A DNA stretch of 64,000 nt. It comes from Pleurocapsa minor HA4230-MV1. Lineage in GTDB: Bacteria > Cyanobacteriota > Cyanobacteriia > Cyanobacteriales > Xenococcaceae. The stretch covers positions 62,001 to 126,000 of the forward strand of contig JAHHHZ010000017.1 in assembly GCA_019359095.1 (NCBI GenBank), read 5' to 3'. This document shows positions 46,259-63,397 of this stretch, in pieces (the stretch's first letter is position 1; the number at the start of each line of letters is the position of its first letter). The notes below the pieces were generated by a model. The model did no database searches. It was not told the DNA's origin and was given only the letters and a program-made list of their open reading frames with translations. A program made the position numbers and the translations under genes.

Positions 46259-46336
46259 TCAAATCAACATTAATACCAAATTAAATTGTATTTCCTAAAT
46301 CACGTCTAATGTAAATTAGCTTCGTTCTAATTTACT

Positions 46337-47659: not shown

Positions 47660-47720
47660 AATGAGTCCTAAAGGATTAGCCCTAAAGGATTAGCTCGCAA
47701 GCTCGCGTCCTTCGCGTCAC
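47660..47720. repeat. Small dispersed repeat
   Basis: GAGTCCTAAAGGATTAGC, CCTAAAGGATTAGCTCGC, AAGCTCGCGTCCTTCGCG, TCAC: the same element as at the hisC start. The remaining part of 47468-47741 upstream of hemF contains a HIP1 site and no gene. Confidence 0.65.
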
Positions 47721-47741
47721 AATGAACATTGAACAATAATC

Positions 47742-47876
47742 CAGGGCTATTTCATTCTCATATATCCAGAGAATAAATTCTCTGTTTAAGTACCGTTAAG
47801 TCCGTTTAAACGGACTTTAATTTTAAGCCAAGAAATTTATTTCTTGGTTCACTACAGTTAGAACAAAATAACCCTG
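47742..47876. mobile_element. MITE, copy 1 (135 bases)
   Basis: Begins CAGGGCTATTTCATTCT and ends AGAACAAAATAACCCTG, imperfect terminal inverted repeats. Contains three perfect palindromes: 47768-47783 (AGAGAATAAATTCTCT), 47799-47816 and 47828-47847. More than 90 percent identical by eye to 57717-57850. Flanks on the minus strand read GATTATTCGT before and GATTATTGTT after, a likely decayed target duplication. It lies 8 bases beyond the stop of the antitoxin-like gene at 47885-48103. Confidence 0.85.
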
Positions 47877-47884
47877 ACGAATAA

Positions 47885-48103
47885 TCACTGCAATACTTCC
47901 CAATCCTCAGAAGAAACAGCAGGTTCAAAAGGGTCATCATAGTGAATAACTGTTCCCCTTAATGGATGAGAATTAGAGATAGTTTTTGATGAAATACATT
48001 CCAAAATGATTATTTCTACTTCATCACCTTTTTTGAAAGGCAAGTTTGGCAGTGATAGCTTCCCGTTTTCAGTAAAAGTAGCTTTGATACGGTGCGAATT
48101 CAT
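47885..48103 (-). CDS. Orphan antitoxin-like protein
   Basis: 72 residues from ATG 48103. The N-terminus IKATFTENGKLSLPNLPFKK is AbrB/SpoVT-like beta-hairpin sequence (GDEVEIIIL), and the C-terminal YDDPFEPAVSSEDWEVLQ is acidic, as in VapB-type antitoxins. The stop TGA overlaps a GTG (GTGA), followed by ATT ATT as in many VapC starts (Met-Ile-Ile), but the MITE begins at the next codon and no toxin follows. Family assignment tentative. Confidence 0.6.
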   Translation of the reverse strand: MNSHRIKATFTENGKLSLPNLPFKKGDEVEIIILECISSKTISNSHPLRGTVIHYDDPFEPAVSSEDWEVLQ

Positions 48104-48200
48104 TTTTCTGACCATAGATAATTAAATTAATTATCGCTTCCTAAATTAAACAATTGCTGAAGGGATTTTTGGACGCGATCGCGATCGCTTGTGGCTAACT

Positions 48201-48343
48201 TACCAATCTTTAAAAATAACTAAAGCGGGGCGTTTGCTTGGTGCGCGTGCGATATGCCGTGAGACGACATATCGGTCGCATCCGCTTTTCGTAGCGGAAC
48301 TGTCAGTAAAAGGAAAAGGTACAACTACCACCTCAAATGGGTT
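48201..48343 (-). pseudogene. MazF/PemK-type toxin remnant interrupted by a 54-base repeat
   Basis: Directly behind the stop of the AbrB-type antitoxin, in the same frame, the minus strand encodes NPFEVVVVPFPFTDSSATK, the MazF N-terminus. An 18-codon insert (48286-48233) follows, then RPALVIFKDW and a TAA. Joining the two pieces gives the classic SATK-RPALVI of MazF. The start codon is missing: the expected ATGA overlap reads ATAG. The downstream two-thirds of the gene is not recognisable. No active toxin can be made. Confidence 0.75.
48233..48286. repeat. 54-base small palindromic repeat inside the mazF remnant
   Basis: Contains CGATATG and CATATCG arms around 11 bases, flanked by GCG-rich sequence. 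It splits the toxin reading frame without shifting it. Confidence 0.6.
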
Positions 48344-48586
48344 CTATAAGTCACGATAAGCTTTCTCATCAGCTTCCGATGACCATTCCCCCAGAGTAGC
48401 GGAAATTGACTCTAGGTATTCCCAGTCTACGGTTGATACTTTTTTGAGAACTACTTTTTCATCTTCTATTTCAAAGATAATGCGATCGCCTTTTTCAATC
48501 TCTAGTTTCTCTCGTACTCCTCTGGGGATAGTTGCTTGATACTTTTGAGTTACCTTGGAGATTAATTTGCTTTTCGCGATCGCCAT
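48344..48586 (-). CDS. AbrB/MazE-family antitoxin
   Basis: 80 residues from ATG 48586. The AbrB swapped-hairpin DNA-binding domain is seen as KVTQKYQATIPRGVREKLEI with GDRIIFEI; the acidic C-terminal tail SSEADEKAYRDL would bind a MazF toxin. The toxin gene right behind it is broken, so it is an orphan, perhaps kept for repression or anti-addiction. The protein itself is complete. Confidence 0.8.
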   Translation of the reverse strand: MAIAKSKLISKVTQKYQATIPRGVREKLEIEKGDRIIFEIEDEKVVLKKVSTVDWEYLESISATLGEWSSEADEKAYRDL

Positions 48587-48658
48587 TACCAATCTTTACT
48601 TACTAAATATCTACTTTAGTTATACCGTATTACCGTATTACTTAAAGCCGATGGCTAA

Positions 48659-50338
48659 TTAAAAACTAAAAGTGGTTCGCAACGCACCAATAAATAAATC
48701 ATCATTGTCATCATTATTATCTGGTTTGTTAACGTAGATCACGCCTGGGGTAATGGCAATATTATCGTTGAGCTGATATTGATAAAAAGCTTCAGCATGT
48801 AAAGATTTTTCTTCATCTTCGTTAAACCCTTCGGCATCAATACTTGAGTCGCTAACCCAGGGTTCCATCCCGACAATAATTCCTCCCATACTGCCTTCTT
48901 TACCCAAATCAGGAAAGGCGAGAGTAGCTGCCCAGTTCCAGATATCTTGTGAGCCACGTTCCACAATTTGTCCATCGACGTTGACAGCATCTAGGGTTCT
49001 AACCTTACTTAAGCCACCCCAACCGCCAATGACAAGGCGATCGCTCAAAGCATAAGAAAACTGTGCGCCATAGGAATTACTTGATGTTGGGACACCACCC
49101 TCGAACACTCCTGGAAGTAAAGGATCGGCGTCTTCCCCTGGTTCGGTAAGAGATTTGATATTGGCTAAATCACTCCCAACACCAGTATCGCTCTGGTTGT
49201 AACCATTAACGTAAGTTAGAGCAATACCTAGCTTTTCAAAAGGAGTAATAGTTAACTGTCCCAGCGCACTATAAGAACCATTAAATAAACCCGCTCCCTG
49301 ATTGGGATCGCTGGCTTCCCCTGCTAAATATCCCGCACTTAACTCCAGCTTGTCACCAAAACTGTGAATTATGCCTAAACCCGTCTCTCCTGGAGGAGAA
49401 TAAATTGGACTACGAGTACCAAAAGCCGAAATTGCTCCCGATCCGCCATCCCCGTCTAACACGCTCAGCGTATTGGCAATATCATCCGCAGCCAGTCCAA
49501 ATGCACCAATCAGTACATTAGTATTTTCGCCAATCGGGCGATCGTAAAATAAAACTTCTAAATTTAAATTATTATCATCAGGTTGCGCAAAAGCAAGTTC
49601 TCCCTGAAATGTACCCGTGGTTTCGGAAAACTCAGGAAAGTTACCCGTAGATAAGCGAGTAAACAGTAAATCATCTCCTGTAAAGCTAGTTTCTAATTCG
49701 AGGCGAGTGCGATAGCCAAAAACAGGCACGCGATCGATGTCGTCATCATCTGTGTCTTGGTTTAATTCTGTGTTTGAACCACTAATCACACTAGCGACTC
49801 CAAAAACTGCTTCTCCAACTAACTTAGTGGTAGTGGAAAATTGACTATCTTCTAATACGGCAGTTCTGCCTTCAAGTTCGTCAACTCTACCACCTAGAGT
49901 AGCTAATTCTGCTTGAAATTCTTGGTTTAATTGATTAATCGCTTCTAGATCTTCTTGGCTAACAGAATCGGAAGAAGCAATTAGGCGTTCAATTTGATTT
50001 AAGCAAGAGTTTAAACCCGCAGCAAATTCATAACGAGTTAGGGATCGATCGCCTCGATAGGTTTGATTGGGAAATCCTGCAATACAGCCATAGCGATCGA
50101 CTAAGCTTCTTAACGCTTCATAAGCCCAGTCTGTAGGCGAGACATCTCGTAACTGATTGACATTGGTTACTTGCCCAAGATTATTATTTGGATTATTTTG
50201 ACCTTCTTGTCCGTATTCTTCTACTTGATTAAGTAGTTCGCTGGATTCTGTTTGAGCCTGGGCTGGACAAGTATATAAACCTGCAACTAAAGCAATAACA
50301 ATAATTGCAGCATTTTTACCCAAAGAAACCTTAGTCAT
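48659..50338 (-). CDS. SLH-domain porin (cyanobacterial OprB/Som family)
   Basis: Outer-membrane channel for small solutes or ions. From ATG 50338 it has a signal peptide (cleavage near AQAQTES), an SLH domain (about 50-110; VSPTDWAYEALRSLVDRYG, GDRSLTRYEFAAGLNSC), which binds peptidoglycan, a short coiled coil (about 120-160), and a C-terminal beta-barrel ending in Phe (ALRTTFSF). About 559 residues. Segments FPDLGKEGSMGGIIVGMEP and YQLNDNIAITPGVIYV are typical of the family, some members of which take up iron. An A+T-rich promoter region lies upstream. Confidence 0.9.
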   Translation of the reverse strand: MTKVSLGKNAAIIVIALVAGLYTCPAQAQTESSELLNQVEEYGQEGQNNPNNNLGQVTNVNQLRDVSPTDWAYEALRSLVDRYGCIAGFPNQTYRGDRSLTRYEFAAGLNSCLNQIERLIASSDSVSQEDLEAINQLNQEFQAELATLGGRVDELEGRTAVLEDSQFSTTTKLVGEAVFGVASVISGSNTELNQDTDDDDIDRVPVFGYRTRLELETSFTGDDLLFTRLSTGNFPEFSETTGTFQGELAFAQPDDNNLNLEVLFYDRPIGENTNVLIGAFGLAADDIANTLSVLDGDGGSGAISAFGTRSPIYSPPGETGLGIIHSFGDKLELSAGYLAGEASDPNQGAGLFNGSYSALGQLTITPFEKLGIALTYVNGYNQSDTGVGSDLANIKSLTEPGEDADPLLPGVFEGGVPTSSNSYGAQFSYALSDRLVIGGWGGLSKVRTLDAVNVDGQIVERGSQDIWNWAATLAFPDLGKEGSMGGIIVGMEPWVSDSSIDAEGFNEDEEKSLHAEAFYQYQLNDNIAITPGVIYVNKPDNNDDNDDLFIGALRTTFSF

Positions 50339-50422
50339 AATAATCCTCACACACAAATTCTAACGGTAATGATAATAATGATTATACTTTTCAAGCAATA
50401 CCCAACTTATTTAGATCTTGTT

Positions 50423-51163
50423 TTATAGTTCTGCCCATTCTTCAGGGAGCATATTAGCCATAACTTCAAATCCACCATCACCATCAGGTTTGAGGATATA
50501 AGCCATACCTTGAGGATCGGGATAGATTCCCGTTGCTGATTCAAAAATATCATCATGACCCACAATGATGTCGTTAGTGCCGCTTTCAGGTACAGCCGTG
50601 AGTAAGGGTGTGACGTTAGCTTTCATTTGCTCGACTTGCTCATCGGTATAATCTTCAAAAGGCAGAAAGTTTAAAGCAGGATCTTTTTCATAATCGCCAA
50701 ATGCTAAGGCTGCGGTAGTCCAGGCACGGCAGTATTCACTGGTAGTAACTTTGCCCACGGGAATTTCAGCGGTAGCAAAAGCATCTCCAATTGCTAGTGC
50801 TTGTTGCAAACCATCTTCACTTAGGACTCTTTGAGTTGAGCAATCATCTACATTTGCCGTTACCTGATCGGCATAATCTTTTTCGGTTTGAGCGTGTCTA
50901 AAGTAGATCACGTAACCGCCTTTTTGCAGTTCACTTAATAATTCTGCCTCAGTCATTTTATCTTGAAAGTCAGCGTTTGCTTGCTCGCCTGGGCTTAACT
51001 GCTCACCTTCTCCCCCTTCTTCTCCACCTTGAGCCATGATTGAGGTGTTAGCACGATCTCTTTCGGCGATCGCCAATGAGTATTCACCCGCATCAACTGT
51101 ATTGCCAGTTAGACTAACTGCTGTCGCTAATCCGAGTACTACAAATAATTCTACTGATTTCAT
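50423..51163 (-). CDS. Exported histidine phosphatase family protein
   Basis: 246 residues. N-terminal signal-peptide-like segment (MKSVELFVVLGLATAVSLTG) with an acidic, Gly-rich linker (GGEEGGEGEQLSPGEQ), then a phosphoglycerate-mutase-fold domain. The catalytic His motif reads YFRHAQTEKD, and the second His lies in IIVGHDDIF. Arg of the pocket is in SEYCRAW. Presumably a periplasmic phosphatase, substrate unknown. It lies 84 bases upstream of the porin gene on the same strand. Confidence 0.8.
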   Translation of the reverse strand: MKSVELFVVLGLATAVSLTGNTVDAGEYSLAIAERDRANTSIMAQGGEEGGEGEQLSPGEQANADFQDKMTEAELLSELQKGGYVIYFRHAQTEKDYADQVTANVDDCSTQRVLSEDGLQQALAIGDAFATAEIPVGKVTTSEYCRAWTTAALAFGDYEKDPALNFLPFEDYTDEQVEQMKANVTPLLTAVPESGTNDIIVGHDDIFESATGIYPDPQGMAYILKPDGDGGFEVMANMLPEEWAEL

Positions 51164-51236
51164 CTTGATAAGTATTCTGATTAATCCTAGAACTTTTGAG
51201 AATACATTTAATGAGAACTTATGTCAAATAGTGGAC

Positions 51237-52568
51237 TTAAAAAATGAATTTTAGCTCGATACTCCAAGACTTAGATTCATGTTCAGGAGGAATAATTACT
51301 ATTTGCTGAATAAATTCGCGAAAATAAAACCGCCTTTCTGCTTCGGATAAGTCTAGCCAGAATTGTGGTAAAGAAACGGCTTGGGCGATCGCTTTTAAAT
51401 TACCTGGAGGCAGTTGCGCCATGTTGATTTCTAGCTGGGCAATTTCGGTACGGAGTTTATAGGTGCGTAAAGCGACAGTTTCTTGGTCTAAGATCCCCTG
51501 TTCTTCTAAATCGAGTAATTGTTGGAGTATAGCTTGCTGCTTAAGAATTTTTTGCTCACCAGATTTCTTAATCGCCGAGTCAGGAGGAAGTTCTAATTGG
51601 GCAACTGCTAAAGGTAGCTCAAGGCAAATTTTAGTAATGGTTTGAGTTAAAACTTGAGCATAGGCGATCGCTTTGCACTTAGGTTTTTTTGGGCATTTAG
51701 GGCAACGCAGATACAAGTATTCAGTTTGTTTGTGATGTTGCGTCACGCGAGTAATATTCATCCCTAACTGACACTGCTGACAGACAACTAAACCCGCCAA
51801 AGATCGAGGTGCGCTAGCGGTACGACTGGGTAGAGAGCGATTGCGACGCAGTAGACGATCTATTTGCGCTGCTTCTTCGGAGTTAATAATTGCCGTGTGG
51901 GTATGAGAAATTATTGACTGATTTTTAGATTGTTTTTGATATTGTAAACTGCCTCGATAGACAGGATTAGTCAGCCAATTGCGTCCTGTAGTGGGGGAAA
52001 TCTTTTTCCCATAACGCTTTTCGAGATAACGAACTGCACCCCGCAAAGAACCAAATAAAATAAACCTTTCAAAAAAATCTTTAACTACTGGAGCTGTACT
52101 TTTATCCACCAAATAACGATCTTGTCCCCGACGATATCCGTAGGGCGCTTTACCAGGTGGAGGCAGCATTTTTAAACGATTACGGGCATGACCCTGTTCG
52201 AGGCGCTGACGTTGCTTATTAGTTTGTATTTCTTGCAGTAAATTACTTAATTTAAGCTTTAATTGTTCGCGTTTTAACTGACCCCATTGGGGCGAACTAT
52301 AATCTTGTTCTGTAGCAATAATCTCCACTCCTAAAGACTCTAATTGATTAAGGCGATCGCAAATTATCTCCAGATTGTCTCCCAATTCTTCAAGCCGACG
52401 AACTAATAAATACTTAGGCGTTTCTAAGGCGCAATCTGCAATTAGTTTTTGTAGCTGTTGATGTCCTCCTATATCTTGATAGACGCGATCGACTTCTAAA
52501 CCCCAAATGTCTCGATCGGGAGCAATTTCTAATAAAGGATCGCTATATAAATAAGCAATAATTTTCAT
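51237..52568 (-). CDS. Serine recombinase, XisF-like
   Basis: 443-residue large serine recombinase related to XisF, which excises the fdxN element in heterocysts of Anabaena. Resolvase-type catalytic domain at 1-130 with Ser9 (AYLYSD) and RRLEELGDN; recombinase domain at about 150-250 (PYGYRRGQDRYLVDKSTAPV, NPVYRGSLQYQK); zinc-ribbon Cys pairs (CQQCQLG, CPKCPKKPKC); C-terminal coiled coil. Such genes are often present as stand-alone genes in cyanobacteria lacking the element. No attachment-site pair was recognised nearby. Confidence 0.85.
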   Translation of the reverse strand: MKIIAYLYSDPLLEIAPDRDIWGLEVDRVYQDIGGHQQLQKLIADCALETPKYLLVRRLEELGDNLEIICDRLNQLESLGVEIIATEQDYSSPQWGQLKREQLKLKLSNLLQEIQTNKQRQRLEQGHARNRLKMLPPPGKAPYGYRRGQDRYLVDKSTAPVVKDFFERFILFGSLRGAVRYLEKRYGKKISPTTGRNWLTNPVYRGSLQYQKQSKNQSIISHTHTAIINSEEAAQIDRLLRRNRSLPSRTASAPRSLAGLVVCQQCQLGMNITRVTQHHKQTEYLYLRCPKCPKKPKCKAIAYAQVLTQTITKICLELPLAVAQLELPPDSAIKKSGEQKILKQQAILQQLLDLEEQGILDQETVALRTYKLRTEIAQLEINMAQLPPGNLKAIAQAVSLPQFWLDLSEAERRFYFREFIQQIVIIPPEHESKSWSIELKFIF

Positions 52569-52931
52569 GGAGTAATCTTTAGTTGATAAATTTTAGCCAG
52601 AGATTATTCCGCTCATATTGATAGGTAATACCTTCATAGTCTATCAATTTTTATGTAACAGAGATCACATGCAAGTTAATTTTTTGGTAAGATATACAAC
52701 ATCTTTATATTTTTTAATAACTATTTTATAATTGCTGTAAATGCCTCTATTTTAAAGGATATAGCTAGATAATTATGGTTGGAAGAATAATATTTTAAGT
52801 AATTTTTAACTTAATAATATTGCTATGCTTGAAAAAAATATGTATGTTTACCTTAGTAGAAATAGTTGAAATTAAACTTTTTTTACGATCGCATTTCAAC
52901 CAAGTAAATTTATCATAGAGAGACAAAGATT
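52569..52931. other. A+T-rich promoter region of the peptide cassette
   Basis: Very A+T-rich (long T and A runs), no gene. It separates the divergent recombinase gene from the precursor-peptide gene and should contain promoters for both. Confidence 0.55.
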
Positions 52932-53126
52932 ATGTCAAACGAAAGACTTTTACAACAATCAGTAGAATTTACAGAAATAGCAGATTCAGAAATGGAGCAA
53001 ATTTCTGGGGGAGACAAAATTATTCAGATTTTTAACCCCTATTCCTTTGGTTACGATAATCGCGGTGGTGACGATTATTACGGTGGTCACGGTAAGGGTA
53101 AGGGTAAAGGTAAAGGTCACCACTAA
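52932..53126 (+). CDS. Double-glycine-leader precursor peptide (bacteriocin/RiPP-like)
   Basis: 64 residues. The N-terminal 27 form a leader ending EMEQISGG, the double-glycine signal cut by C39 peptidases. The predicted 37-residue core starts DKIIQIFNPYSFGYDN and ends in (GK)4-GHH. The core has no Cys and a single Ser, so it is not a classical lanthipeptide. It is rich in Gly, Tyr, Asp, His and Lys and may bind metals through the His/Asp-rich part. The Gly-Lys tail is written by a near-perfect hexanucleotide repeat (GGTAAG/GGTAAA). The C39-type ABC exporter and adaptor genes follow on the same strand. Confidence 0.8.
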   Translation: MSNERLLQQSVEFTEIADSEMEQISGGDKIIQIFNPYSFGYDNRGGDDYYGGHGKGKGKGKGHH

Positions 53127-53204
53127 GTAAGTTTCTGCTTGAAGAGCAACTAAATTATGGTTTACAAAAACTGTAAAAACTATAATTAGCTGCCCTAGAT
53201 TAAT

Positions 53205-53238
53205 AAGGTCGCATCACTGTCAAATTGAATGCGACCTT
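53205..53238 (+). promoter_or_regulatory. 10-bp inverted repeat between precursor and exporter genes
   Basis: AAGGTCGCAT and ATGCGACCTT around 14 bases, 79 bases after the precursor stop. No T-tract follows, so it is more likely a processing or attenuation hairpin giving more precursor than exporter than a full terminator. The rest of 53127-53440 holds no gene. Confidence 0.5.
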
Positions 53239-53440
53239 ATCTATATAAATAATATCAAAATCTTAAAACCCAGAAACTGTATCCTTAAGCAACTTTTAGA
53301 ATACTTTTTAAAAATCAATAACAATTATTAATCGTTGACGTGACTTAAACATTGCTGAATGCGGTTAACTACTGGAAACATAAAACATCATTCAACTTAA
53401 CCAAACCAAGATATTAATACAGCTTTAGGATGGATCGAAC

Positions 53441-55636
53441 GTGAAATATTCAGTTGTTTTACAGCATAGTGAAACAGACTGTGGTGCTGCTTGTCTGGGA
53501 GCAATATGTCAACATTATGGACGCACTTTAACTCTAAATACCCTGCGGGAGGCGGTAGGGACAGGGCAATTGGGAACGACAATGCTAGGGTTGAGGAGGG
53601 GTGCAACATCTCTTGGTTTAAATGCTCGTCCTGTTCGAGCTTCTCCTAATATTGTCGATCAGCTTAAATCTGCTTCCTTGCCTGCAATTATTCATTGGCA
53701 AGGTCATCACTGGGTAGTGTTACACGGTCAACGCCGTAATAAATATATTATTGCTGACCCCGCAATTGGCATTCGTTATGTTTCTCGTCAAGAACTAATT
53801 GAAGGTTGGCTCGATTGGGTCATGCTGTTATTAGAACCCGATCCAAGCCGATTTCACGACCAACCAGATGAAAAAACCGATCGCGGTTTGGGGAGATTTT
53901 TTCAGCAGCTATGGGCTTATCGGCGTACTCTAATTGGAGCTTTGATTTGCGCTCAGATAATTGGCTTACTTTCTCTAGCTTATCCCTTTTTGATTCAAAT
54001 TTTGACTGATGATGTCTTGATTCGGGGAGACAGGCAACTATTGACGGGATTGGCGATCGCCGTAATCGCTATGAATTTAGTCAGTGCCTGGTTAGAATTA
54101 GTTGAATATAACCTAATTACCCATTTTGCTCAGAAGCTAGAATTGGGGCTGGTTTTGGAATTTGCCAGAACCCTTTTGCGTTTGCCTCTAACTTATTTTG
54201 AAGCCCGTCGGAGTGGAGAAATAGTCAGCCGTTTAGAAGACGTGCAGGAGATTAATCAGCTAGTAGCCCAGACGGTAATTAGCATACCCAGTCGGCTTTT
54301 TATCGCCATTATTTCCTTTGGATTTATGGTGTTTTACAGTCAATCTCTAACTCTAGTAGTAATTGCGATCGCGATGGTTATGACCATTTCGACGACTATC
54401 TTGTTACCCACCCTCCAGCAAAAAGTCCGTCGAGTGATGGTTTTAGATTCAGAAAATCAAGGGGTATTGGTGGAAACTTTTAAAGGTGCTTTGACTCTTA
54501 AAACTACCGCTGCTGCACCGCAATTATGGGAAGAGATGCAGCTACGCTTTGGCAGCTTTGCCAATCAGACTTATCGTACTGCTCAAATTGGAATTTTTAA
54601 CTTTACCTTTTCTAAATTGGTATCGAGTATTGGCAGCATCACTTTGCTTTGGTATGGTAGCACTCTAGTTTTTAGCGATAAGTTAAGTATTGGGCAGCTA
54701 TTGGCTTTTAATAGCATGACCGCTAATTTTCTGGGTTTGATTAGCACCTTAATCCAGTTTGTCGATGAATGGACTCGTGTGCGTACTGCCATCGATCGCA
54801 TTACAGAGATTATCGAACATACTCCCGAAAGTCAAATAGATAAAAATAAGCCAGTAGTTAAGCTGGCAAACAAGGCAGATATTATTTGCGAAGATGTTAG
54901 CTTTAGCTATCCTGGCAGAGTCGAGTTACTGCAAGATTTTTCTTTAAATATTCCTGGGGGACAGGTAACTGCATTGATCGGTAAATCTGGCTGTGGTAAA
55001 AGTACCCTAACTAAGTTAATCGCCAATCTCTACTCAACTCAGACTGGAAACATTAGCATTGGTTTATATAATCAATCCGACATTGACTTAGATTGTTGGC
55101 GACAGCAGGTAGTTTTAATTCCGCAAGATGCCCATTTTTGGAGTCGTTCGATTATTGAAAACTTTACTCTCGGCAATCCTCAAGTCAGCTTTGAACAAAT
55201 TCTTCAAGCCTGTAATATTGCTGGTGCAGATGAGTTTATTCGCAAAATGCCCGACAAATACCAAACTATCTTAGGCGAATTTGGCGCAAATCTTTCTGGT
55301 GGTCAAAAACAACGGCTGGCGATCGCCAGAGCAATAGTCAACAATCCACCAGTTCTAATTTTAGATGAATCTACAGGCGCACTCGACCCCGTTAGCGAAC
55401 ATCAGGTTTTAGAACGACTGCTTTACCATCGACACAATAAAACAACAGTTATGATTAGCCATCGTCCCAAAGTGATTGAACGAGCCGATTGGATCGTGAT
55501 GTTAGACCAGGGAAAACTCCAGATTCAGGGAACTCCAGCCGAATTAAGTCATCTATCTGGAGAACACTTAGATTTTTTCGATCGACCTTTTGCTCAAGAC
55601 AACAGCAATGGTCAAAAAGCGATTCGCGGATTTTAA
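53441..55636 (+). CDS. Peptidase-containing ABC transporter (C39 PCAT)
   Basis: 731 residues combining cleavage and export of double-glycine peptides. N-terminal C39 peptidase: catalytic Cys14 (TDCGAACLG), His89 (GHHWVVLHG), Asp105 (IADPAIG). The membrane domain is at about 155-450 with six helices; the ATPase is at about 480-715 with Walker A GKSGCGKSTL, signature LSGGQKQRLA, Walker B VLILDEST and H-loop ISHRP. GTG start at 53441; no upstream ATG fits better. Complete and apparently active. It should process the peptide encoded at 52932 and export it through the adaptor encoded next. Confidence 0.93.
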   Translation: MKYSVVLQHSETDCGAACLGAICQHYGRTLTLNTLREAVGTGQLGTTMLGLRRGATSLGLNARPVRASPNIVDQLKSASLPAIIHWQGHHWVVLHGQRRNKYIIADPAIGIRYVSRQELIEGWLDWVMLLLEPDPSRFHDQPDEKTDRGLGRFFQQLWAYRRTLIGALICAQIIGLLSLAYPFLIQILTDDVLIRGDRQLLTGLAIAVIAMNLVSAWLELVEYNLITHFAQKLELGLVLEFARTLLRLPLTYFEARRSGEIVSRLEDVQEINQLVAQTVISIPSRLFIAIISFGFMVFYSQSLTLVVIAIAMVMTISTTILLPTLQQKVRRVMVLDSENQGVLVETFKGALTLKTTAAAPQLWEEMQLRFGSFANQTYRTAQIGIFNFTFSKLVSSIGSITLLWYGSTLVFSDKLSIGQLLAFNSMTANFLGLISTLIQFVDEWTRVRTAIDRITEIIEHTPESQIDKNKPVVKLANKADIICEDVSFSYPGRVELLQDFSLNIPGGQVTALIGKSGCGKSTLTKLIANLYSTQTGNISIGLYNQSDIDLDCWRQQVVLIPQDAHFWSRSIIENFTLGNPQVSFEQILQACNIAGADEFIRKMPDKYQTILGEFGANLSGGQKQRLAIARAIVNNPPVLILDESTGALDPVSEHQVLERLLYHRHNKTTVMISHRPKVIERADWIVMLDQGKLQIQGTPAELSHLSGEHLDFFDRPFAQDNSNGQKAIRGF

Positions 55637-55662
55637 TCAACAACAAGGTTAATTCATTCTCA

Positions 55663-57549
55663 ATGCATACCAATCAGGCTAATTCTCAATCTAGACAGCC
55701 TATTAGAAATATCCTCAAAGTTATTTTGGTTGATGACCAAAAGTTTGTTCAGCATAAGCTACAACAAATGCTATCTGAGGAAGTCGATTTGAAAATTGTC
55801 GGCGTTGCCAATGACGGTGAAACGGCGATCGCTTTGGTAGAGACTTTAGAACCTGACGTAGTATTAATTGATATTGAAATGCCAAAAATGAATGGCATTG
55901 AAGCAACTAAAATTATTGCCGAGCGTTTTCCTGACTGTAAAATTTTGATTTTGAGTAGCTACGAGCATCAGGAATATGTACAGAATATTATTGTGGCGGG
56001 GGCAGATGGCTATATTCTTAAAACCAGTTCAGCCGAAGATTTGGTAACGGCAATTCACTCAGTTTGTAATGGCTATGCTCACTTTGGTTCAGAATTATTC
56101 AAAAAAATTCAGTTAGCCCAGAATGCCGAGGGAATTTCTGGAATCGAAAGCTCAAAACCGATAGTAGCTAATGATTATGCTACTCTTAGCCCACAAAACA
56201 TTCCTCAACAACTAGCATCAAGACAAGCCGACGAACTATTGCCGCCTGTAAGTAGATGGCTGACTTGGGGTGGAATTTCTGTAGTTACGATAATTGCCCT
56301 AGCTATTCCAGCAACCGCTATTTTTCAATACAAAACAGTGGTCAAAGCTCAGGCGATCGCTCGTCCTGTAGAAGAATTACACTTAGTTCAAGCGGCAGTA
56401 GAAGGGCAAGTTGCTCAAATTTTAGTTAAAGAGGGTGAAGCTGTAGCGCAAGGAGAGGCGATCGCCACTATCGATCGTTCTCGCTTTCAAACTAAGCAAA
56501 ATCAATTGGAATCAGGCATCAAGCAACAAAAATTGCAGTTAGGGCAGCTTAATGCCCAGATTATTGGTTTACAAACTCAAATCATCGCTGAAACTGAACG
56601 TAATCAAGCTGAGATTGCAGCAGCCAGATCCGAATTGGCAGGGAGTCAACGCAACTATCAAGATAAAAGCACCGAGGTTACTACTCAAGTTGAAGAATCC
56701 GAGGCTCAAGTTAGAGCGGTTACAGCAGGCTTAAAGGCTGCCCAAGCTAAACATAATCGTTATCAATCGGTAGCAAAGGCGGGAGCAATCGGCAAAAATC
56801 AGTTGGCAGAAGCAGAACTAGAGGTTAGACAACAAGAACAAGAATTAGAAGCTGCACAAGCTAAACTAAAGCGAGGGATCTCTGCCCTCAATCCCTCAAC
56901 CGCAGAGATTGAAACCTATCAACAGCGTATCGAACAGGTAAAAAAATCTGGTCGAGCTACTATAGCTAGTTTAAACCGAGAAACAGAAGCTCTAATTCAG
57001 CAACGCATTGAGATCGATCGCCAGGTAGAACAAGATACAGCAGAATTAAATCAGGTTAATCAAGAGCTTACTAAGACTCAGATCGCTGCCACCGCTACTG
57101 GCACAATCTTTCAGCTTGGTTTGAATAATCAAGGACAAACTGTACAGCCTGGACAAGAAATCGCCCAAATTATTCCCGAAAACTTTCAGATTGAAATGAA
57201 AGCAGCAGTATCACCTCAAGATATTAGCAAGTTAAAAGTAGGACAGGGGGTTCAAATGCGCGTTTCTGCCTGCCCTTATCCCGATTACGGCACTCTTCAA
57301 GGTAGGGTAACTCAAATTGCTCAAGATACTACTAGTAAACCACCTAGCCAGTCAGAAAATGACTTTCAAGTCAAGAAAGCTACTGCTTTTTATGAGGTGG
57401 CGATCGCTCCTAATAGCAACACCTTTGGGAGACAAGAACACCAGTGTTCACTGCAACTGGGGATGGAAAGTCAGGCTGATATTATCTCCAGAGAAGAAAC
57501 GATGCTTCAGTTCATACTAAGAAAAGCCAGGCTTACTAGCAATCTTTAA
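55663..57549 (+). CDS. Response-regulator receiver / HlyD adaptor fusion
   Basis: 628 residues from ATG 55663 (upstream in-frame codons overlap the exporter gene). Residues 15-135 form a receiver domain: acidic pair Asp24-Asp25, phospho-acceptor Asp70 (VVLIDIEMPKMNG), Ser98/Ser99, Lys120 (GYILKTSS). One membrane helix at 198-222 follows, then an HlyD-type adaptor: lipoyl-like halves (AAVEGQVAQILVKEGEAV), a long coiled-coil hairpin and a beta-barrel (IPENFQIEMKAAVSPQDIS). The receiver would be cytoplasmic and the adaptor periplasmic, so phosphorylation could gate export. No histidine kinase is adjacent. It follows the exporter by 26 bases. Confidence 0.9.
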   Translation: MHTNQANSQSRQPIRNILKVILVDDQKFVQHKLQQMLSEEVDLKIVGVANDGETAIALVETLEPDVVLIDIEMPKMNGIEATKIIAERFPDCKILILSSYEHQEYVQNIIVAGADGYILKTSSAEDLVTAIHSVCNGYAHFGSELFKKIQLAQNAEGISGIESSKPIVANDYATLSPQNIPQQLASRQADELLPPVSRWLTWGGISVVTIIALAIPATAIFQYKTVVKAQAIARPVEELHLVQAAVEGQVAQILVKEGEAVAQGEAIATIDRSRFQTKQNQLESGIKQQKLQLGQLNAQIIGLQTQIIAETERNQAEIAAARSELAGSQRNYQDKSTEVTTQVEESEAQVRAVTAGLKAAQAKHNRYQSVAKAGAIGKNQLAEAELEVRQQEQELEAAQAKLKRGISALNPSTAEIETYQQRIEQVKKSGRATIASLNRETEALIQQRIEIDRQVEQDTAELNQVNQELTKTQIAATATGTIFQLGLNNQGQTVQPGQEIAQIIPENFQIEMKAAVSPQDISKLKVGQGVQMRVSACPYPDYGTLQGRVTQIAQDTTSKPPSQSENDFQVKKATAFYEVAIAPNSNTFGRQEHQCSLQLGMESQADIISREETMLQFILRKARLTSNL

Positions 57550-57716
57550 TTACTGAAAATTATAATTTGAAACAACAATTACGCTATTTCTAAGCGATCG
57601 CCAAAAAACCACAATCAAAATTATTTCTTGATGTAGATTGATGTAAATTAAATGATTTTAGTCATTGGCTTGACCTATTGATGAGTTTCAGACATTTTCA
57701 AGACTGAGTTTTCTTG

Positions 57717-57850
57717 CAGGGCTATTTCATTCTCATATATCCAGAGAATAAATTCTCTGTCTAATTACATTAAGTCCGTTTAAACGGACTTTAATTTTAA
57801 GCCAAGAAATTTATTTCTTGGTTCACTACAGTTAGAACGAAATAGCCCTG
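57717..57850. mobile_element. MITE, copy 2 (134 bases) with 9-bp target duplication
   Basis: Terminal repeats CAGGGCTATTTCATTCT and AGAACGAAATAGCCCTG match at 16 of 17 positions. Perfect direct repeats GTTTTCTTG flank it at 57708-57716 and 57851-57859, a clear target-site duplication. The same three internal palindromes as copy 1 at 47742. No transposase is encoded. It lies in the 57550-57896 spacer, which holds no gene. Confidence 0.9.
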
Positions 57851-57896
57851 GTTTTCTTGAAGCAAGAGTTAAATAAAAATTAAATTTACTTAGCTA

Positions 57897-58523
57897 ATGC
57901 AATCTACTGCTAAATTTTATAATGGCAACAGTGATTTAGCAATTATGGAATTACATCAAAAAACTTTATTAGAAAAAAGAAGCTTTTATTTATTATCAAA
58001 TCAACTTAAGCTCTATTTGAAAGATCTAGAAGGTGAGCATGAAAATTATATCAACTATGAAAGCCTCAAAGGAGAAGCCAAAATTAGCTGTCACCGAAGC
58101 CCAAAATTGCTGTTTATAAACATAGTAATATTTACTTTCTCAATCTGTATCTTGCTCCAAAGCTTGATTACTAATCAAGGATTTATTTATAGTATTATCT
58201 GTTTAATTATTACTTTTTTATTGACTCTTTTGTATCAGTATCGGCAACAAAACTACATTCTTTTAGAAACTTGCGATCGCCAACAAATTATATTTTTAAG
58301 AGATAAACCAAATCGTCAAGCTGTAGAACAATTTTTAGCGCAACTATGGCTAGAGCGTAAGCGGTATTTAAGAGAAAAATATTTTTATATTAATTACAAT
58401 CACAATTTAAAACAACAAACAGAAAGGTTAAGCTGGTTGCTAGAGCAAAATGTGATTAGCAAGGCGGAATATCAGGTTGCTCAAGAAGACTGGATTATCG
58501 ATCGCAGTTATCAGACAAGTTAG
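57897..58523 (+). CDS. Hypothetical membrane protein
   Basis: 208 residues with two adjacent membrane helices (about 76-98 and 104-124), a soluble N-terminal part and a C-terminal part rich in Arg, Tyr and Gln that ends in a short helical segment (RLSWLLEQNVISKAEYQVAQ) like the SHOCT motif. Not assigned to a family. It is read in the direction of the peptide cassette but after a MITE and a 350-base gap, so cotranscription is doubtful. Confidence 0.6.
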   Translation: MQSTAKFYNGNSDLAIMELHQKTLLEKRSFYLLSNQLKLYLKDLEGEHENYINYESLKGEAKISCHRSPKLLFINIVIFTFSICILLQSLITNQGFIYSIICLIITFLLTLLYQYRQQNYILLETCDRQQIIFLRDKPNRQAVEQFLAQLWLERKRYLREKYFYINYNHNLKQQTERLSWLLEQNVISKAEYQVAQEDWIIDRSYQTS

Positions 58524-58580
58524 GGGTGTAGTGTCTTGATTGTCTAAAAAGTCTAAAGTTGTTACAGTATAGGGCAAATT

Positions 58581-59408
58581 ATGAAGTTGGCGATTATTGG
58601 TTGTGGGTATGTAGGTAGTGCGGTAGCGCGTTTATGGCACACAGCAGGAAATGAAGTAACGGTGACTACCACTACAGCCGAGAGAGTAGAAGAATTACAG
58701 GCGATCGCTTCTCAAGTAGTTGTGGTGACGGGGGACGATTTATCAGGCTTGAAACAAGTGGTTGCTAACCAAGATGTCGTCTTATTTAGTATTGGCTCAA
58801 AGCAACGTACTCTTGAAGTTTATCGTCAGACGTATTTAGAGACAGCCAAAAATTTAGTAGCTGCAATCAAGGCTAATTCTGGAGTTGGGCAACTTATTTA
58901 TACTGGTAGTTACGGGATTATTAACGATCAAAGTGGTCAGGCGATCGATGAAACTGTCACCGTAAATCCTAAAGACGAATTTGGGGAAATTCTCGCTCAG
59001 ACAGAGCAAGTATTACTTGGCGCATCAGCAGATTTTAAAACCTGTATTTTACGCTTGGCAGGTATATATGGGCCAGGAAGAGAGTTAATCAAGATCTTTA
59101 GACGGGTTGCTGGGACAACTCGCCCAGGATCGGGAGAAAGCTATACCAATTGGGTTCATTTAGAAGATATTGTGCGGGCGATCGATTTGGCTAAAGATCG
59201 GCAGCTAGAAGGTATTTATCACGTAAATAGTGATGAGGTGATGACGACTAAAGAGTTTCTCCAAAGATTATTTGTGGCTCACAATCTGCCTCCTGTTACC
59301 TGGGATAGTTCGCAGACTTCCCCTCGTACTTATAATATGAAACTGTCTAATCAAAAGATCAAAAGTGTCGGTTTTGAATTAGCTCATCCTAACATTGAGT
59401 TTATCTAG
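58581..59408 (+). CDS. NAD-dependent epimerase/dehydratase-like protein (YeeZ type)
   Basis: 275-residue Rossmann-fold protein of the extended SDR superfamily. NAD-binding loop IIGCGYVGSAVARLWHTAG at the N-terminus; segments IYTGSYGII, LRLAGIYGPGRELI and NWVHLEDIVRAID are typical. The usual catalytic Tyr-x3-Lys is not evident, so it may be an atypical reductase or a non-catalytic binder. Substrate unknown. Confidence 0.8.
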   Translation: MKLAIIGCGYVGSAVARLWHTAGNEVTVTTTTAERVEELQAIASQVVVVTGDDLSGLKQVVANQDVVLFSIGSKQRTLEVYRQTYLETAKNLVAAIKANSGVGQLIYTGSYGIINDQSGQAIDETVTVNPKDEFGEILAQTEQVLLGASADFKTCILRLAGIYGPGRELIKIFRRVAGTTRPGSGESYTNWVHLEDIVRAIDLAKDRQLEGIYHVNSDEVMTTKEFLQRLFVAHNLPPVTWDSSQTSPRTYNMKLSNQKIKSVGFELAHPNIEFI

Positions 59409-59415
59409 GGAAAAA

Positions 59416-59453
59416 CCGCGACGCAAAGCTAGTCCTTTAGGGCTGTTCGCCCT
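59416..59453. repeat. Small dispersed repeat (inverted orientation)
   Basis: CGCGACGCAAAGCTAGTCC, TTTAGGGCTGTTCGCCC. The TCCTTTAGGG core is the complement of the CCTAAAGGA found in the other copies. In the 84-base gap before the HAD gene. Confidence 0.6.
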
Positions 59454-59492
59454 GACAAATAAAACTGACTTAAGTATTTAATTAAATTAATT

Positions 59493-60269
59493 ATGTCTCG
59501 ACTTCCAGATATTTTGGCGTTAGATTTCGATGGTGTAGTTTGCGATGGTTTACTAGAATATTTTGCTACTACTAAACAAGCTTACAAGCTAATATGGTCG
59601 GCAGAGATTGACGATAGTTTTGCCCCCAGCTTTTATCGTCTGCGCCCCGTGATCGAGACGGGTTGGGAAATGCCAATATTACTCAGGGCATTAGTAACAG
59701 GGATATCTGAAGCAGAGATTTTAACTAGTTTCCAGGCGATCGCCCTCCAAATTACTGAGGCAGAAGGACTATCAAAACAGGAGGTAGTGCAAAAATTAGA
59801 CGGGGTTAGAGATGACTGGATTAAACACAATTTAGCCGATTGGTTGAGCCTACATCGCTTTTATCCTGGGATGATCGAGCAATTAAAACAGATACTTAAT
59901 TCAGCAGTAAAACTCTATATTGTCACTACCAAAGAAGGACGTTTTGTTAAGCAGCTACTCCAGCAGCAGGGAATAGATTTGCCCGCAGCACAAATTATTG
60001 GCAAGGAAAGTAAACGTCCCAAATACGAAACCCTAAGAATTATCAGGGATAGACACCAGCAGCCAGGTGAAAATATCCAGATTACCTTTGTCGAAGATCG
60101 TCTTCCCGCTTTACAGCAGGTGGCACAACAAGAAGATCTCAAGTTTGTCGAGTTATTTTTAGCCGACTGGGGCTATAACCTAGAAGGCGATCGCGCGATC
60201 GCAACTCAAGATAAACGGATCAAACTGTTATCTTTAGAGCGTTTTCAACAAGATTTAACTAGCTGGTAG
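59493..60269 (+). CDS. HAD-superfamily hydrolase
   Basis: 258 residues. Motif I DILALDFDGVVCDG (nucleophile Asp, DxD), motif II VTTKEGRF, Lys near SKRPKYETL, and motif III/IV ITFVEDRLPALQQV. A helical cap lies between motifs I and II (about 30-150). Probably a phosphatase of small phosphorylated metabolites; cyanobacterial relatives are annotated only as HAD hydrolases. Confidence 0.82.
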   Translation: MSRLPDILALDFDGVVCDGLLEYFATTKQAYKLIWSAEIDDSFAPSFYRLRPVIETGWEMPILLRALVTGISEAEILTSFQAIALQITEAEGLSKQEVVQKLDGVRDDWIKHNLADWLSLHRFYPGMIEQLKQILNSAVKLYIVTTKEGRFVKQLLQQQGIDLPAAQIIGKESKRPKYETLRIIRDRHQQPGENIQITFVEDRLPALQQVAQQEDLKFVELFLADWGYNLEGDRAIATQDKRIKLLSLERFQQDLTSW

Positions 60270-60483
60270 ATTGTCTCTATGTGTTGAGTTGTTAATCATA
60301 TTATGATCGGGATTAGCGATCGCAACACCAATAACATTACCATCGTTATTAACAAACTTATTCAAAACTCTACTGAAATTATTTCCAGTAAGTTGTTAGC
60401 TATATTGCACCACAACAATCTCTCTTTACCGAAAATGATAAAGTATTATAATAATCTGTTACTCATCGCCAAACTGTAAACTT

Positions 60484-60771
60484 ATGTCTACCGCTACTGA
60501 CATTGGCACATTAGTCACCTCTTCCCCAGATATTGGTAATGGTCGTCCAATTATTGCGGGAACAAAAACTTCTGTTCGTCGAGTGGTTGTTCTATATAAA
60601 CAAGGTGCAAATGCTGAAGAGATTGCTCGCCGTATGAGCCATCTTAACCTTGCACAAGTTTATGCTGCTTTAGCTTACTATCATGTTAATCGTGATGAAA
60701 TTGAAGCAGATTTGGCTGAGGAGGATGCGGAATACTCAAAGCTAGCATCATTACATAGCCAGAAGGCTTAA
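60484..60771 (+). CDS. DUF433 antitoxin
   Basis: 95 residues. DUF433 helix-turn-helix proteins serve as antitoxins and autoregulators for DUF5615 PIN-like toxins. Recognised by GNGRPIIAGTKTSVRRVVVL and NLAQVYAALAYYHVNRDEIE. An 11-base gap separates it from the toxin gene. Intact. Confidence 0.88.
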   Translation: MSTATDIGTLVTSSPDIGNGRPIIAGTKTSVRRVVVLYKQGANAEEIARRMSHLNLAQVYAALAYYHVNRDEIEADLAEEDAEYSKLASLHSQKA

Positions 60772-60782
60772 CAGTTTTTTAG

Positions 60783-61148
60783 GTGAGCAAAATACTTTTG
60801 TATATTGACGAAGACTCGATGGATGGGGACTTTGTATACGCTTTGAGATCTCGCAATGTGGATGTATTAACAGTTGCGGACGTAGGAATGCTCCATAAAT
60901 CTGATGAGGAGCAGCTAGATTGGGCAAATCAAAACGGTCGAGTCATTTTTAGTTTCAATACCAGAGACTTTTACCGATTACACACTACTCTAATCGAGCA
61001 AGGCTTATCTCATGCAGGAATTATTTTAGCTCCACAGCAACGATACGGGATTGGTGACCTAATGCGTGGAGTGCTGAGACTGATCAATACAATACCTTCA
61101 GTTGAAATGCAGGGACAACTAGAGTTTTTGAGTAACTGGATTTCATAA
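60783..61148 (+). CDS. DUF5615 PIN-like toxin
   Basis: 121 residues starting with GTG at 60783. Acidic positions of the PIN-like (Mut7-C related) RNase fold are seen in LLYIDEDSMDGDFV, VLTVADVGMLHKSDEEQLDW and NTRDFYRL. Forms the toxin of a type II pair with the DUF433 protein before it. In contrast to other systems in this window, this pair looks complete. Confidence 0.85.
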   Translation: MSKILLYIDEDSMDGDFVYALRSRNVDVLTVADVGMLHKSDEEQLDWANQNGRVIFSFNTRDFYRLHTTLIEQGLSHAGIILAPQQRYGIGDLMRGVLRLINTIPSVEMQGQLEFLSNWIS

Positions 61149-61281
61149 GTCAGAGTCATCTAGCTTACCAGGGTCGACTTTGTAAATTTTAAAATAGTAG
61201 ATAGAAGCATATCAATAGTGTTGCACTTCGTTCCTTGACCAACCCTAGTTAGAAAATGCAAAAATACTGATAAAAACTTAT

Positions 61282-61542
61282 TTATTTTGCTGAACGAAGC
61301 TCTTCGAGTTCCTCTTGAATAACTCGGCGTAGTGTTTCTTCATCTACTGGCTGCTTCACTTTTTCTAAATACTGTCGCAAAGCTTCATTTATCATAGTTT
61401 GATAACCTTTGCCAGCAGATTCACTTCGCTCTCGGAAAGTTGCAAGCACATCGTCATCAATATAGATTGTAATACGAGTTTTACCAGTTTGGGGAATAAC
61501 AGCCCCCCGTTGAGCTTGACTAAAATCATATTCCGCTTTCAT
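61282..61542 (-). CDS. BrnA-like antitoxin, orphan
   Basis: 86 residues with a ribbon-helix-helix domain (KTRITIYIDDDVLATFRERS, GYQTMINEALRQYL) as in BrnA/CopG antitoxins and an acidic tail with EELEELRSAK. The BrnT toxin gene normally precedes brnA; none is found on either side (61149-61281 and 61543-61677 hold no toxin sequence). It may be an orphan regulator. Confidence 0.75.
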   Translation of the reverse strand: MKAEYDFSQAQRGAVIPQTGKTRITIYIDDDVLATFRERSESAGKGYQTMINEALRQYLEKVKQPVDEETLRRVIQEELEELRSAK

Positions 61543-61677
61543 ACTGAGGTATGTTTGATGTAGGTTTTGATTTGTTTTATATCTGTAGCATAAAAGATTT
61601 ATCTTTCATACTCGACTTAATTTGAGTAATAAATATTGAGCTTATCCCTACATCTAGCCACTTAAGCCAAAGAATCA

Positions 61678-62337
61678 CTACCAGTGAATTTGGCTCAAAA
61701 TATAGCGCAGGCGATCGTAATCATCTTTCAGCAGAGTACTGAGGGTACGTCCTACATTCACCAGCCAATCTCGATTTGCCTGACGCTGACGATAAACATC
61801 TCTGACTGAAGCTGCGACCAAAGATTCGACAGGAATATCTTTTGCTGATAGTAAAGTTCTCAAAAAGTCTAGTTTTTCCGTAAAGTGAACCACTTCCTCG
61901 ACATCGCAATGATATACCGACTGATGAATCTGAGGTGGGCGAGGAGGTAAGTACTGATATACTTGACCTAAATTATTACTGTTCAAATTATTAGGTGTTT
62001 CAAACCCGACGATCGCCGCTTTAAATTCGGTTTTCAGCATGGCAAAAATCTGAGGCTGTTGTTCCCTTAATTCTTCTAAAGACAAGCCTAATGCGCGCGC
62101 ACGGTGGACTGAATCAATCGGACTAGTCGTGACATAGGTAACAACGGCAAAAATTTTATTGCCTGACTCTTCATCAAAAGATTTAATCCAGCTGCCAAAA
62201 GGAGGCATTACAGGAAACTTCAGATCTTCGGGTTCAAGACATTGAGCTAGATATTGAGTAGTGGAAGTTTCGATCACCTCTCCAATATGCTTGGGGTTGC
62301 GACCATCGACTGTAAATTGAGGCAGGGGAAGACGCAT
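61678..62337 (-). CDS. HAS-barrel-like conserved protein
   Basis: 219 residues. The N-terminal half (RNPKHIGEVIETSTTQYLAQ, then PPFGSWIKS and AVVTYVTTSPID) resembles the HAS beta-barrel found in HerA and ATP-synthase-type proteins; the C-terminal half is helical (LLSAKDIPVESLVAASVRDV). Common in cyanobacteria, no known function. Gene upstream of it on the same strand is ndhS, 86 bases away. Confidence 0.6.
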   Translation of the reverse strand: MRLPLPQFTVDGRNPKHIGEVIETSTTQYLAQCLEPEDLKFPVMPPFGSWIKSFDEESGNKIFAVVTYVTTSPIDSVHRARALGLSLEELREQQPQIFAMLKTEFKAAIVGFETPNNLNSNNLGQVYQYLPPRPPQIHQSVYHCDVEEVVHFTEKLDFLRTLLSAKDIPVESLVAASVRDVYRQRQANRDWLVNVGRTLSTLLKDDYDRLRYILSQIHW

Positions 62338-62423
62338 TGTTAAAGACTGGGAGGGATAAAGAGTAAAGGATGAGAAGATAATGCTTTTTGCTCTTGACTA
62401 TCCTAATCTTGGCTAGAGTAACC

Positions 62424-62615
62424 TTATTTTTTCTTCTTGGTTAAATCTACCGCTGCCAATTCCGATAGATTAAAGGTCACTAATTTGTCCCAGTTGCCAC
62501 CTTCAAATAGCACTGCTACTTTAGCATCATCAATCCGCTGTACCAATCCCTGATAGTTGAAGTAGATATCGTCAGAATTGGTAACTTTAACCGTTGCGCC
62601 AGGTAAAATAATCAT
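62424..62615 (-). CDS. ndhS: NDH-1 subunit NdhS
   Basis: 63 residues; SH3-like small subunit of the photosynthetic NDH-1 complex that forms the docking site for ferredoxin. Recognised by [11 protein letters not shown] near the start and [20 protein letters not shown]. The usual length is 60-70 residues with a basic tail (LTKKKK here). Encoded away from the ndhAIGE operon, as is normal. ATG 62615. Confidence 0.85.
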
Positions 62616-62707
62616 TTGCTTAAAAATTTACTTAAGATGCGATCGCTATTTAGGGATATTCTATTTTACCTAAGTTTACCAAGTAAACCTAGATTTAGTA
62701 AAAGGAA

Positions 62708-63397
62708 TCAATCCTTAATCGCATCAAGTATTTCATCGGTAGTTGGCTTGTAGTTGGGTTCAACTAGCTCAATGTTCTCCTTCCAAATGTAATAAACCTG
62801 CTCAATTGTCCCATCATGGTGACTCCATGAACCCGTGTAATCAATAAAATTTAGTCTGACTAAGAGCCATTCTTGGTTAGGAGAATCTAATGGTTTGGTA
62901 GCAAAAATAAACCCCGCCTCATTATCCTGATATTCATATAATTCAAGAGCATACAAAGAACCTTGCCAGCCATATTCTCCTGAAATTGTCGCTTCGATCG
63001 CTGCTCTTTCAGTATTATTTTTAGGAGTAAAAATAAACGCTTGTTCTGGAATATCTCTATAAATTACTGGCGACCAGCTAAATTTACTCAGCATAAATTC
63101 AGCTAATTTCTGTAAAGCTATTTTATCTTTAGTCATCAGCCAAACTTCTGACTCTAGACGATTACTAATTGTCCATTGAATTTCGTTTCTAAATTTGTAT
63201 GCTACAGCAGCAAAAGCCTGATCGTAAACTAACTTGTGATCGATACCAATATACCCTTCGTTAAGTAATTGTTCAATAGTTTTTTGTGAAGGAAAAGGTT
63301 TTTTATAAGAGAAGTCATAATGTATTGGTCTAGCTTGTAAATCAAACTCTATATAGATATTATTTTGCCGTAGCTTATTTAGCTTATTCTGTTTCAT
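62708..63397 (-). CDS. Hypothetical protein
   Basis: 229 residues from ATG 63397 (MKQNKLNKLRQNN). Soluble, rich in aromatic residues (Trp, Tyr, Phe), with segments GYIGIDHKLVYDQAFAAVAY, EVWLMTKDKIALQKLAEFML and NQEWLLVRLNFIDYTGSWSH. It does not match a family that I recognise. The upstream in-frame ATG at 63451 is possible but the extra 18 residues look like non-coding A+T-rich sequence. Confidence 0.55.
   Translation of the reverse strand: MKQNKLNKLRQNNIYIEFDLQARPIHYDFSYKKPFPSQKTIEQLLNEGYIGIDHKLVYDQAFAAVAYKFRNEIQWTISNRLESEVWLMTKDKIALQKLAEFMLSKFSWSPVIYRDIPEQAFIFTPKNNTERAAIEATISGEYGWQGSLYALELYEYQDNEAGFIFATKPLDSPNQEWLLVRLNFIDYTGSWSHHDGTIEQVYYIWKENIELVEPNYKPTTDEILDAIKD

Follow-up and report, generated by a model that had tools for sequence, protein, structure and literature searches.

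A three-gene peptide-export cassette with a receiver-bearing HlyD adaptor, and related receiver fusions in a cyanobacterial family

A receiver domain fused to an HlyD membrane fusion protein is the most unusual feature of a compact peptide-export cassette in the 64,000-nucleotide stretch of cyanobacterial DNA analysed here (the window), and it is part of a wide pattern. Including the window's own protein, we collected 57 proteins of at least 430 residues, chosen for an N-terminal receiver, in which that receiver sits on a long export-type tail. Stripped of its receiver the cassette is of a known kind; it is the receiver-bearing adaptor that sets it apart, with a recurrent pattern behind it. 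We tentatively propose, at somewhat less than even confidence, that in one cyanobacterial family two-component signalling may act directly on trans-envelope export machines. In this proposal receivers would have been attached repeatedly to the cytoplasmic ends of adaptors that serve peptide exporters and efflux pumps, as well as to chain-length-determinant-like proteins, so that phosphorylation would gate secretion and transcription would be bypassed. The window's cassette would then be a compact example with its own peptide cargo.

The cassette and its surroundings

The window (G000:C17:62001-126000) belongs to a cyanobacterial genome of 5.64 Mb in 36 contigs. A first-pass annotation made from the letters alone had described a precursor, an exporter and an adaptor in a row on one strand, and we confirm that this cassette is real, with all three genes on the plus strand where it had placed them (Table 1).

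Table 1. Features of the export cassette, in window coordinates
Feature	Position	Strand	Evidence
GG-leader precursor, 64 aa	52932..53126	+	ORF; bacteriocin_sig 14.7 bits, below cut-off
Leader, residues 1-27, cleavage expected after GG	52932..53012	+	leader pattern test; similar leaders elsewhere
Core peptide, residues 28-64	53013..53123	+	composition; no relative found
RNA hairpin between precursor and exporter genes	53203..53240	+	fold of region 53180-53280
C39 peptidase/ABC exporter, 731 aa, GTG start, short type	53441..55636	+	Pfam, NCBIfam, structure alignment
C39 peptidase domain, C14, H90, D106	53444..53842	+	PF03412 1.1e-34
ABC transmembrane domain	53933..54733	+	PF00664 9.1e-33
ATPase domain; Walker A/B, signature and H-loop motifs in protein	54929..55375	+	PF00005 1.1e-30
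Receiver-HlyD fusion adaptor, 628 aa	55663..57549	+	Pfam, NCBIfam
NarL-type receiver; D24/D25, D70, S98, K120	55720..56055	+	PF00072 5.8e-27; conservation
Hydrophobic stretch, residues 203-221, likely transmembrane helix between receiver and adaptor	56269..56325	+	hydropathy
HlyD membrane fusion part	56284..57519	+	TIGR01843 4.5e-48 (under cut-off); PF13437 1.7e-16 (over)

The exporter carries the Pfam domains Peptidase_C39, ABC_membrane and ABC_tran, and the intact catalytic triad and full ATPase that had been read from its sequence are both present. Its residues 2-710 align with a solved bacteriocin transporter (4ry2), and its score of 451 against the NHLM_micro_ABC1 cut-off of 853 places it outside the NHLM family. 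The adaptor most likely starts at the ATG at 55663, 26 bases past the exporter stop, in preference to a TTG at 55489. The receiver-HlyD fusion had appeared only in the title of the first-pass annotation, undiscussed; it holds up, with Response_reg at residues 20-131 followed by HlyD domains. A broken or mis-called fusion was rejected, since the gene reads as one uninterrupted frame and proteins from other genomes have their domains in the same order. The receiver, which has the full phosphorylation quartet, is probably cytoplasmic and the HlyD part periplasmic. In sequence and catalytic residues this receiver resembles NarL/FixJ response regulators, but the protein has no GerE DNA-binding domain by Pfam, and an export adaptor follows the receiver instead.

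A domain scan of the 12 flanking proteins (43689-63451, small ORFs aside) found no maturase, in agreement with the earlier claim that none is encoded in or near the cassette, and a Pfam/NCBIfam-type scan of the same 12 found no second ABC exporter. Upstream, on the opposite strand, lies a serine-recombinase-type protein (51237-52568, minus), a possible sign of mobility. Downstream come a 208-residue protein and then epimerase-like and HAD-like proteins; the eight further flanking proteins, on both sides, comprise a glycosyltransferase, a diacylglycerol-kinase-like protein, a coproporphyrinogen oxidase, an OprB porin, a histidine phosphatase, DUF5615 and HAS-barrel proteins and one without a match. 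The 208-residue frame (57897-58523) starts 347 bases 3' of the cassette, shows hydrophobic stretches when read by eye and matches no Pfam or NCBIfam family over cut-off; since it has no relative in the collected loci, the idea that it belongs to the cassette as a conserved component was rejected. In the gap that separates the precursor gene from the exporter gene, the folded region reaches -17.3 kcal/mol (z -3.1; 2 of 200 shuffles equally good). The hairpin has no T run and no terminator was called, so it is not a classical terminator, and it might uncouple expression of the peptide from that of the exporter. In the genome as a whole C39 matches number nine, one of them weak, and two clear outer membrane efflux (OEP) genes lie outside the cassette, which itself encodes no outer membrane channel.

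The cargo and its known relatives

The 64-residue peptide has the EMEQISGG leader end reported for it, the leader closing at residue 27 with hydrophobic residues at -4, -7, -12 and -15 and a glutamate at -8. A strict leader pattern, composed after inspection of this leader, picks out the precursor alone from the window's 255 small ORFs (35-150 aa). It has no match in 40 order-3 Markov versions of that sequence, which contain about 386 small ORFs each. The same pattern is satisfied by nine of 22 GG peptides picked by eye from other loci. Pfam finds no match on the precursor, and the NCBIfam bacteriocin_sig model falls just under its cut-off of 15.7 bits. The 37-residue core, with 10 Gly, 5 Lys, 4 Asp, 4 Tyr and 3 His, contains no Cys, as had been noted. 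A search for core homologues, proposed earlier as a check, came back empty: across 100 genomes at E<=0.01 it returned the precursor itself and no relative in the other 99, and the motif HGKGKGKG occurs in one of 291 genomes of the order, the window's own. A conserved core peptide was accordingly rejected for the genomes searched.

The arrangement around the core has a closer counterpart. In another genus (G023, locus L127), a pair of GG peptides is followed on the same strand by a C39 exporter and then by a receiver-HlyD protein; the exporter is 65, 58 and 69% like the window's in three parts, and the receiver-HlyD protein 39 and 42%. The L127 leaders FTELSDRAAEQISGG and the window leader FTEIADSEMEQISGG have 10 of 15 residues in common, while the cores differ; taken alone this leader match has an E of 0.063, and these nearest peptides fail the strict pattern for want of an acid at -8. 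The export reading gains support from L127, since the same gene order recurs there with similar leaders in another genus. At locus L126 (G019) a receiver-HlyD gene lies on one strand and several GG peptides, together with C39 pieces, on the other; further short C39 exporters adjoin GG peptides with different cores, some longer than 100 residues. From such differing cores beside similar exporters, it seems that many cargoes leave by a single export scheme. At L121, L137, L138 and L153, GG-leader proteins of about 117-144 residues, which look as if they may be crystallin-like, lie upstream of C39 and HlyD genes without a receiver.

Among described systems, the group III cyanobacterial bacteriocin clusters combine a short C39 exporter, HlyD and a GG precursor (Wang et al. 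2011, PMC3140520). The window likewise has a short-type C39 exporter, HlyD and a GG precursor with no second ABC exporter nearby; it differs in that HlyD is single-domain in the clusters as described there, whereas the window's carries a receiver, and that paper's main text uses neither the term "response regulator" nor the term "receiver". A tested relative of the cassette type is the EbfG/PteB set of biofilm proteins of Synechococcus elongatus (PMC4997328). According to the main text of that paper, EbfG1-4 are likewise small GG-motif proteins whose efficient secretion is C39-dependent, and their mature parts, like the window core, lack homologues in other cyanobacteria, although the cores themselves differ; "HlyD" and "response regulator" are absent from that text. 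The NHLM export system (TIGR03794/03796/03797) also occurs with a receiver-fused HlyD, accompanied by both exporters, in the window's genome. Our search of the open-licence PMC literature by titles and abstract starts found no report in which HlyD or any other adaptor carries a fused receiver, and two-component control is treated as transcriptional in what we cite of a review on tripartite systems (PMC8277102).

A different secretion route offers a partial parallel. The PorX response regulator acts on the type IX secretion machine itself and thus ties a receiver protein to secretion; PorX is a separate protein, and the type IX machine is unrelated to the window exporter. The NCBIfam PorX model gives only a weak, generic receiver match here.

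Receiver fusions across export-type proteins

Most of the 57 fusions come from a receiver search of 27 genomes of the family, which gave at least 70 rows with frames of 562-789 residues; 51 were used and 19 left out, all of the latter with frames of 738-789 residues. The remaining six are L127, L128, L139, L041 and two proteins from G362. The phosphorylation quartet is complete in 55 of the 57. In L133 (ORF 6413-8416) the phosphoacceptor Asp of a receiver-HlyD protein has become Gly, making it a natural pseudo-receiver, and in L225 the called start removes the acidic pair. In 51 of 57 the segment from residue 157 to residue 314 includes a hydrophobic stretch.

The tails are of several kinds. 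Six fusions, including the window's, have a short HlyD tail (no C39 exporter was seen in the L128 and L210 stretches examined), 14 have a long HlyD tail beside C39 exporters of 907-1048 residues, four an NHLM HlyD tail and six a 715-764-residue HlyD form. A MacA-like tail beside MacB-like genes accounts for two, a tail type first seen in Hydrococcus for three, a chain-length-determinant-like tail for 11 and other tails for the last 11 (among them HlyD_3 in L197 and a lipoyl domain in L201). Pfam recovers Response_reg in all 22 fusions with chain-length-like or other tails and in 14 of 14 in another subset; HlyD_3 is found in 10 of the 22 and again in all 14. The HlyD fusions sit beside three kinds of C39 exporter, one of them an over-cut-off NHLM system. 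This last (L122, G000:C19:215000-228000) lies in the window's genome and consists of a receiver fused to NHLM HlyD (4671-6800) followed by both NHLM exporters; it exceeds the cut-offs of TIGR03794, 03796 and 03797, with 407 bits against 156 for TIGR03794, and the other three NHLM tails are 63-66% like its own.

The same genome also encodes a receiver on a chain-length-determinant-like protein (L190, ORF 4926-6884, minus, G000:C11:34500-45000), whose Wzz and TIGR03007 matches are below cut-offs, so that the chain-length label is a weak one. Its neighbours, by reading, resemble sugar transferases; the other ten tails of this type, found in relatives, are 29-68% like its own, and nine of the 11 fusions have two hydrophobic stretches. 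At L040/L129 and L191 a receiver is joined to a MacA-like adaptor adjoining a MacB-like gene, with an outer membrane channel gene also present at L040/L129, and a signal-gated efflux pump is possible for these loci. A 353-residue protein (L231, 99-1160) with an N-terminal receiver and, read by eye, a hydrophobic stretch near its C-terminus is possibly another membrane-bound receiver type. HlyD adaptors can carry other N-terminal domains: at L018, L020, L140 and L141 the domain is an NB-ARC/AAA ATPase, and these genes have short C39 exporters as neighbours, along with GG peptides of which some contain Cys.

All 27 family genomes have a receiver match whose frame is 562 residues or longer, and at least one long-frame protein was collected from 25 of them (none from G001 or G026). 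In 244 genomes of the phylum searched at E<=1e-33, with 3 to 16 candidates scored per genome, the matches listed place receivers in 16 genomes; two are family genomes with long and short frames, and the other 14, which belong to different families, have, among those matches, only frames of 216-336 residues. A profile built from 13 receiver-HlyD proteins and run against 386 genomes, under the same limit on candidates, gave receiver-inclusive matches, among those listed, only in G000, G011 and G362. The last comes from a different family and encodes two receiver-HlyD proteins next to C39 exporters; the fusion is therefore not confined to the family, and outside it a receiver-adaptor fusion is rare in the samples searched. 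Matches to the receiver itself also occur in other phyla.

The history of the fusions was followed in two unrooted trees, which do not distinguish gain, loss and swap. The HlyD tree contains 23 chosen tails, six with a receiver and 17 without (two of these NB-ARC), incomplete L142 and L153 being excluded. On it the six receiver-bearing tails need four changes, three of them forced by starred branches; uniting the six short-HlyD fusion tails is rejected (AU p 8.8e-7), and the window tail groups with receiver-less tails (support 95/97). In the receiver tree, a quick one of 126 columns and 93 rows with many forks unresolved, uniting the receivers of the same six fusions is also rejected (AU p 0.0016), and the window receiver clusters with two MacA-like fusion receivers (SH-aLRT 99, identity at most 67% over 122 columns). 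The two placements together indicate that the window receiver and its HlyD part differ in history, and both trees reject a single ancestral short-type receiver-HlyD protein. The rejection of one origin for the short-HlyD fusions suggests repeated selection.

The canonical NarL regulators of the family form a group apart from the fusion receivers. The latter are intermixed with 20 shorter receiver proteins of 182-361 residues; on the quick receiver tree the fusion label needs nine changes, and one clean clade of fusion receivers is unsupported. At L138 (G010) a C39 gene, an HlyD gene and a separate NarL-type regulator stand in a row. This regulator is an unlikely source of the fusion as its unfused ancestor, as it carries GerE and its receiver groups with the canonical regulators.

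A possible switch on the adaptor

The first-pass interpretation is partly supported overall; its reading of the cassette as an export unit is supported by the GG peptide, the C39 exporter, HlyD, the lack of a local maturase and the gene order at L127. We give even chances to the fuller model, in which the peptide leaves by a type I route with the receiver as a phosphorylation switch on the adaptor. The cassette would produce and export one small, probably unmodified peptide by type I secretion: the C39 domain would cleave after GG, the ABC exporter would power transport, the HlyD part would span the periplasm, and the route would be completed by an outer membrane channel whose gene lies elsewhere. 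Type I export of a processed, unmodified peptide is the best supported element of the model. It is plausible that an unlinked histidine kinase phosphorylates D70, whereupon the receiver would change shape or pair with those next to it in the ring of adaptors, after which the adaptor would engage or release the exporter. Secretion would thereby follow the signal directly, bypassing transcription. Most likely, phosphorylation by an unlinked kinase would gate export. In favour of the model stand the complete C39, ATPase and HlyD parts, the canonical leader, the quartet kept in 55 of 57 fusions, the rejection of one origin for the short-HlyD fusions, the receiver on the NHLM adaptor at L122 and, elsewhere in the genome, the two efflux genes and 71 HATPase_c matches, not all necessarily kinases. 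Against it, every HATPase_c match is more than 18 kb from each of the six long receiver fusions identified in this genome, and the nearest to the window fusion is about 30 kb away.

For export as such the receiver appears dispensable, because receiver-less HlyD relatives adjoin closely related exporters, one of them in the same genome (L121). Such relatives, with the same exporter type and an HlyD, would also fit an ordinary group III bacteriocin-type cassette whose receiver fusion has no special role, as would the rarity of the fusion outside the family in the samples searched. We regard this as decidedly unlikely given the conserved quartet, the several adaptor types concerned and the at least three changes that the starred branches force on the HlyD tree. 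The persistence of the L133 fusion despite loss of its phosphoacceptor counts against gating, and would fit a receiver that works as a module for docking or dimerisation and so positions the exporter or gathers it into clusters, with phosphorylation not controlling secretion. Receivers can serve as protein-protein modules and HlyD-like adaptors function as oligomers, which also speaks for docking. Yet docking alone would not keep the quartet complete, as it is in 55 of the 57 fusions, which include adaptors of several types; we consider docking unlikely. Signalling might also run in reverse, the state of the exporter altering the receiver, which would report to a kinase or drain phosphate from it. 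A receiver on an envelope-spanning protein without a DNA-binding output would suit that arrangement, but no kinase-type match lies near the cassette, and the separate regulator beside HlyD at L138 has GerE and groups with canonical regulators, leaving this the least probable of the explanations considered.

What the peptide does is independent of the receiver question. We put only a little below even the chance that it is a surface or matrix component, acting in biofilm formation or in binding of metal or anionic polymers, and not an antibiotic. The Gly/Lys/His-rich tail of the core is compatible with this, as is the occurrence in the same genome of a receiver on the chain-length-determinant-like protein among sugar-transferase-like genes; EbfG1-4, efficiently secreted through the C39 exporter PteB, serve biofilm formation in the account given in PMC4997328. 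Against this, the core has no homologue of known function, an antimicrobial role is a candidate on the same footing, and the 208-residue protein downstream may act as a partner specific to the strain, for instance by providing immunity.

If receivers on adaptors do gate export, as we tentatively propose, the path from sensor to secreted product would be direct and could be tested by single-residue changes. The family supplies natural pairs for such work, with and without a receiver on similar exporters and even within one genome (the window and L121). If true, the model hints at how these cyanobacteria may coordinate the export of peptides, efflux and possibly the export of polysaccharides.
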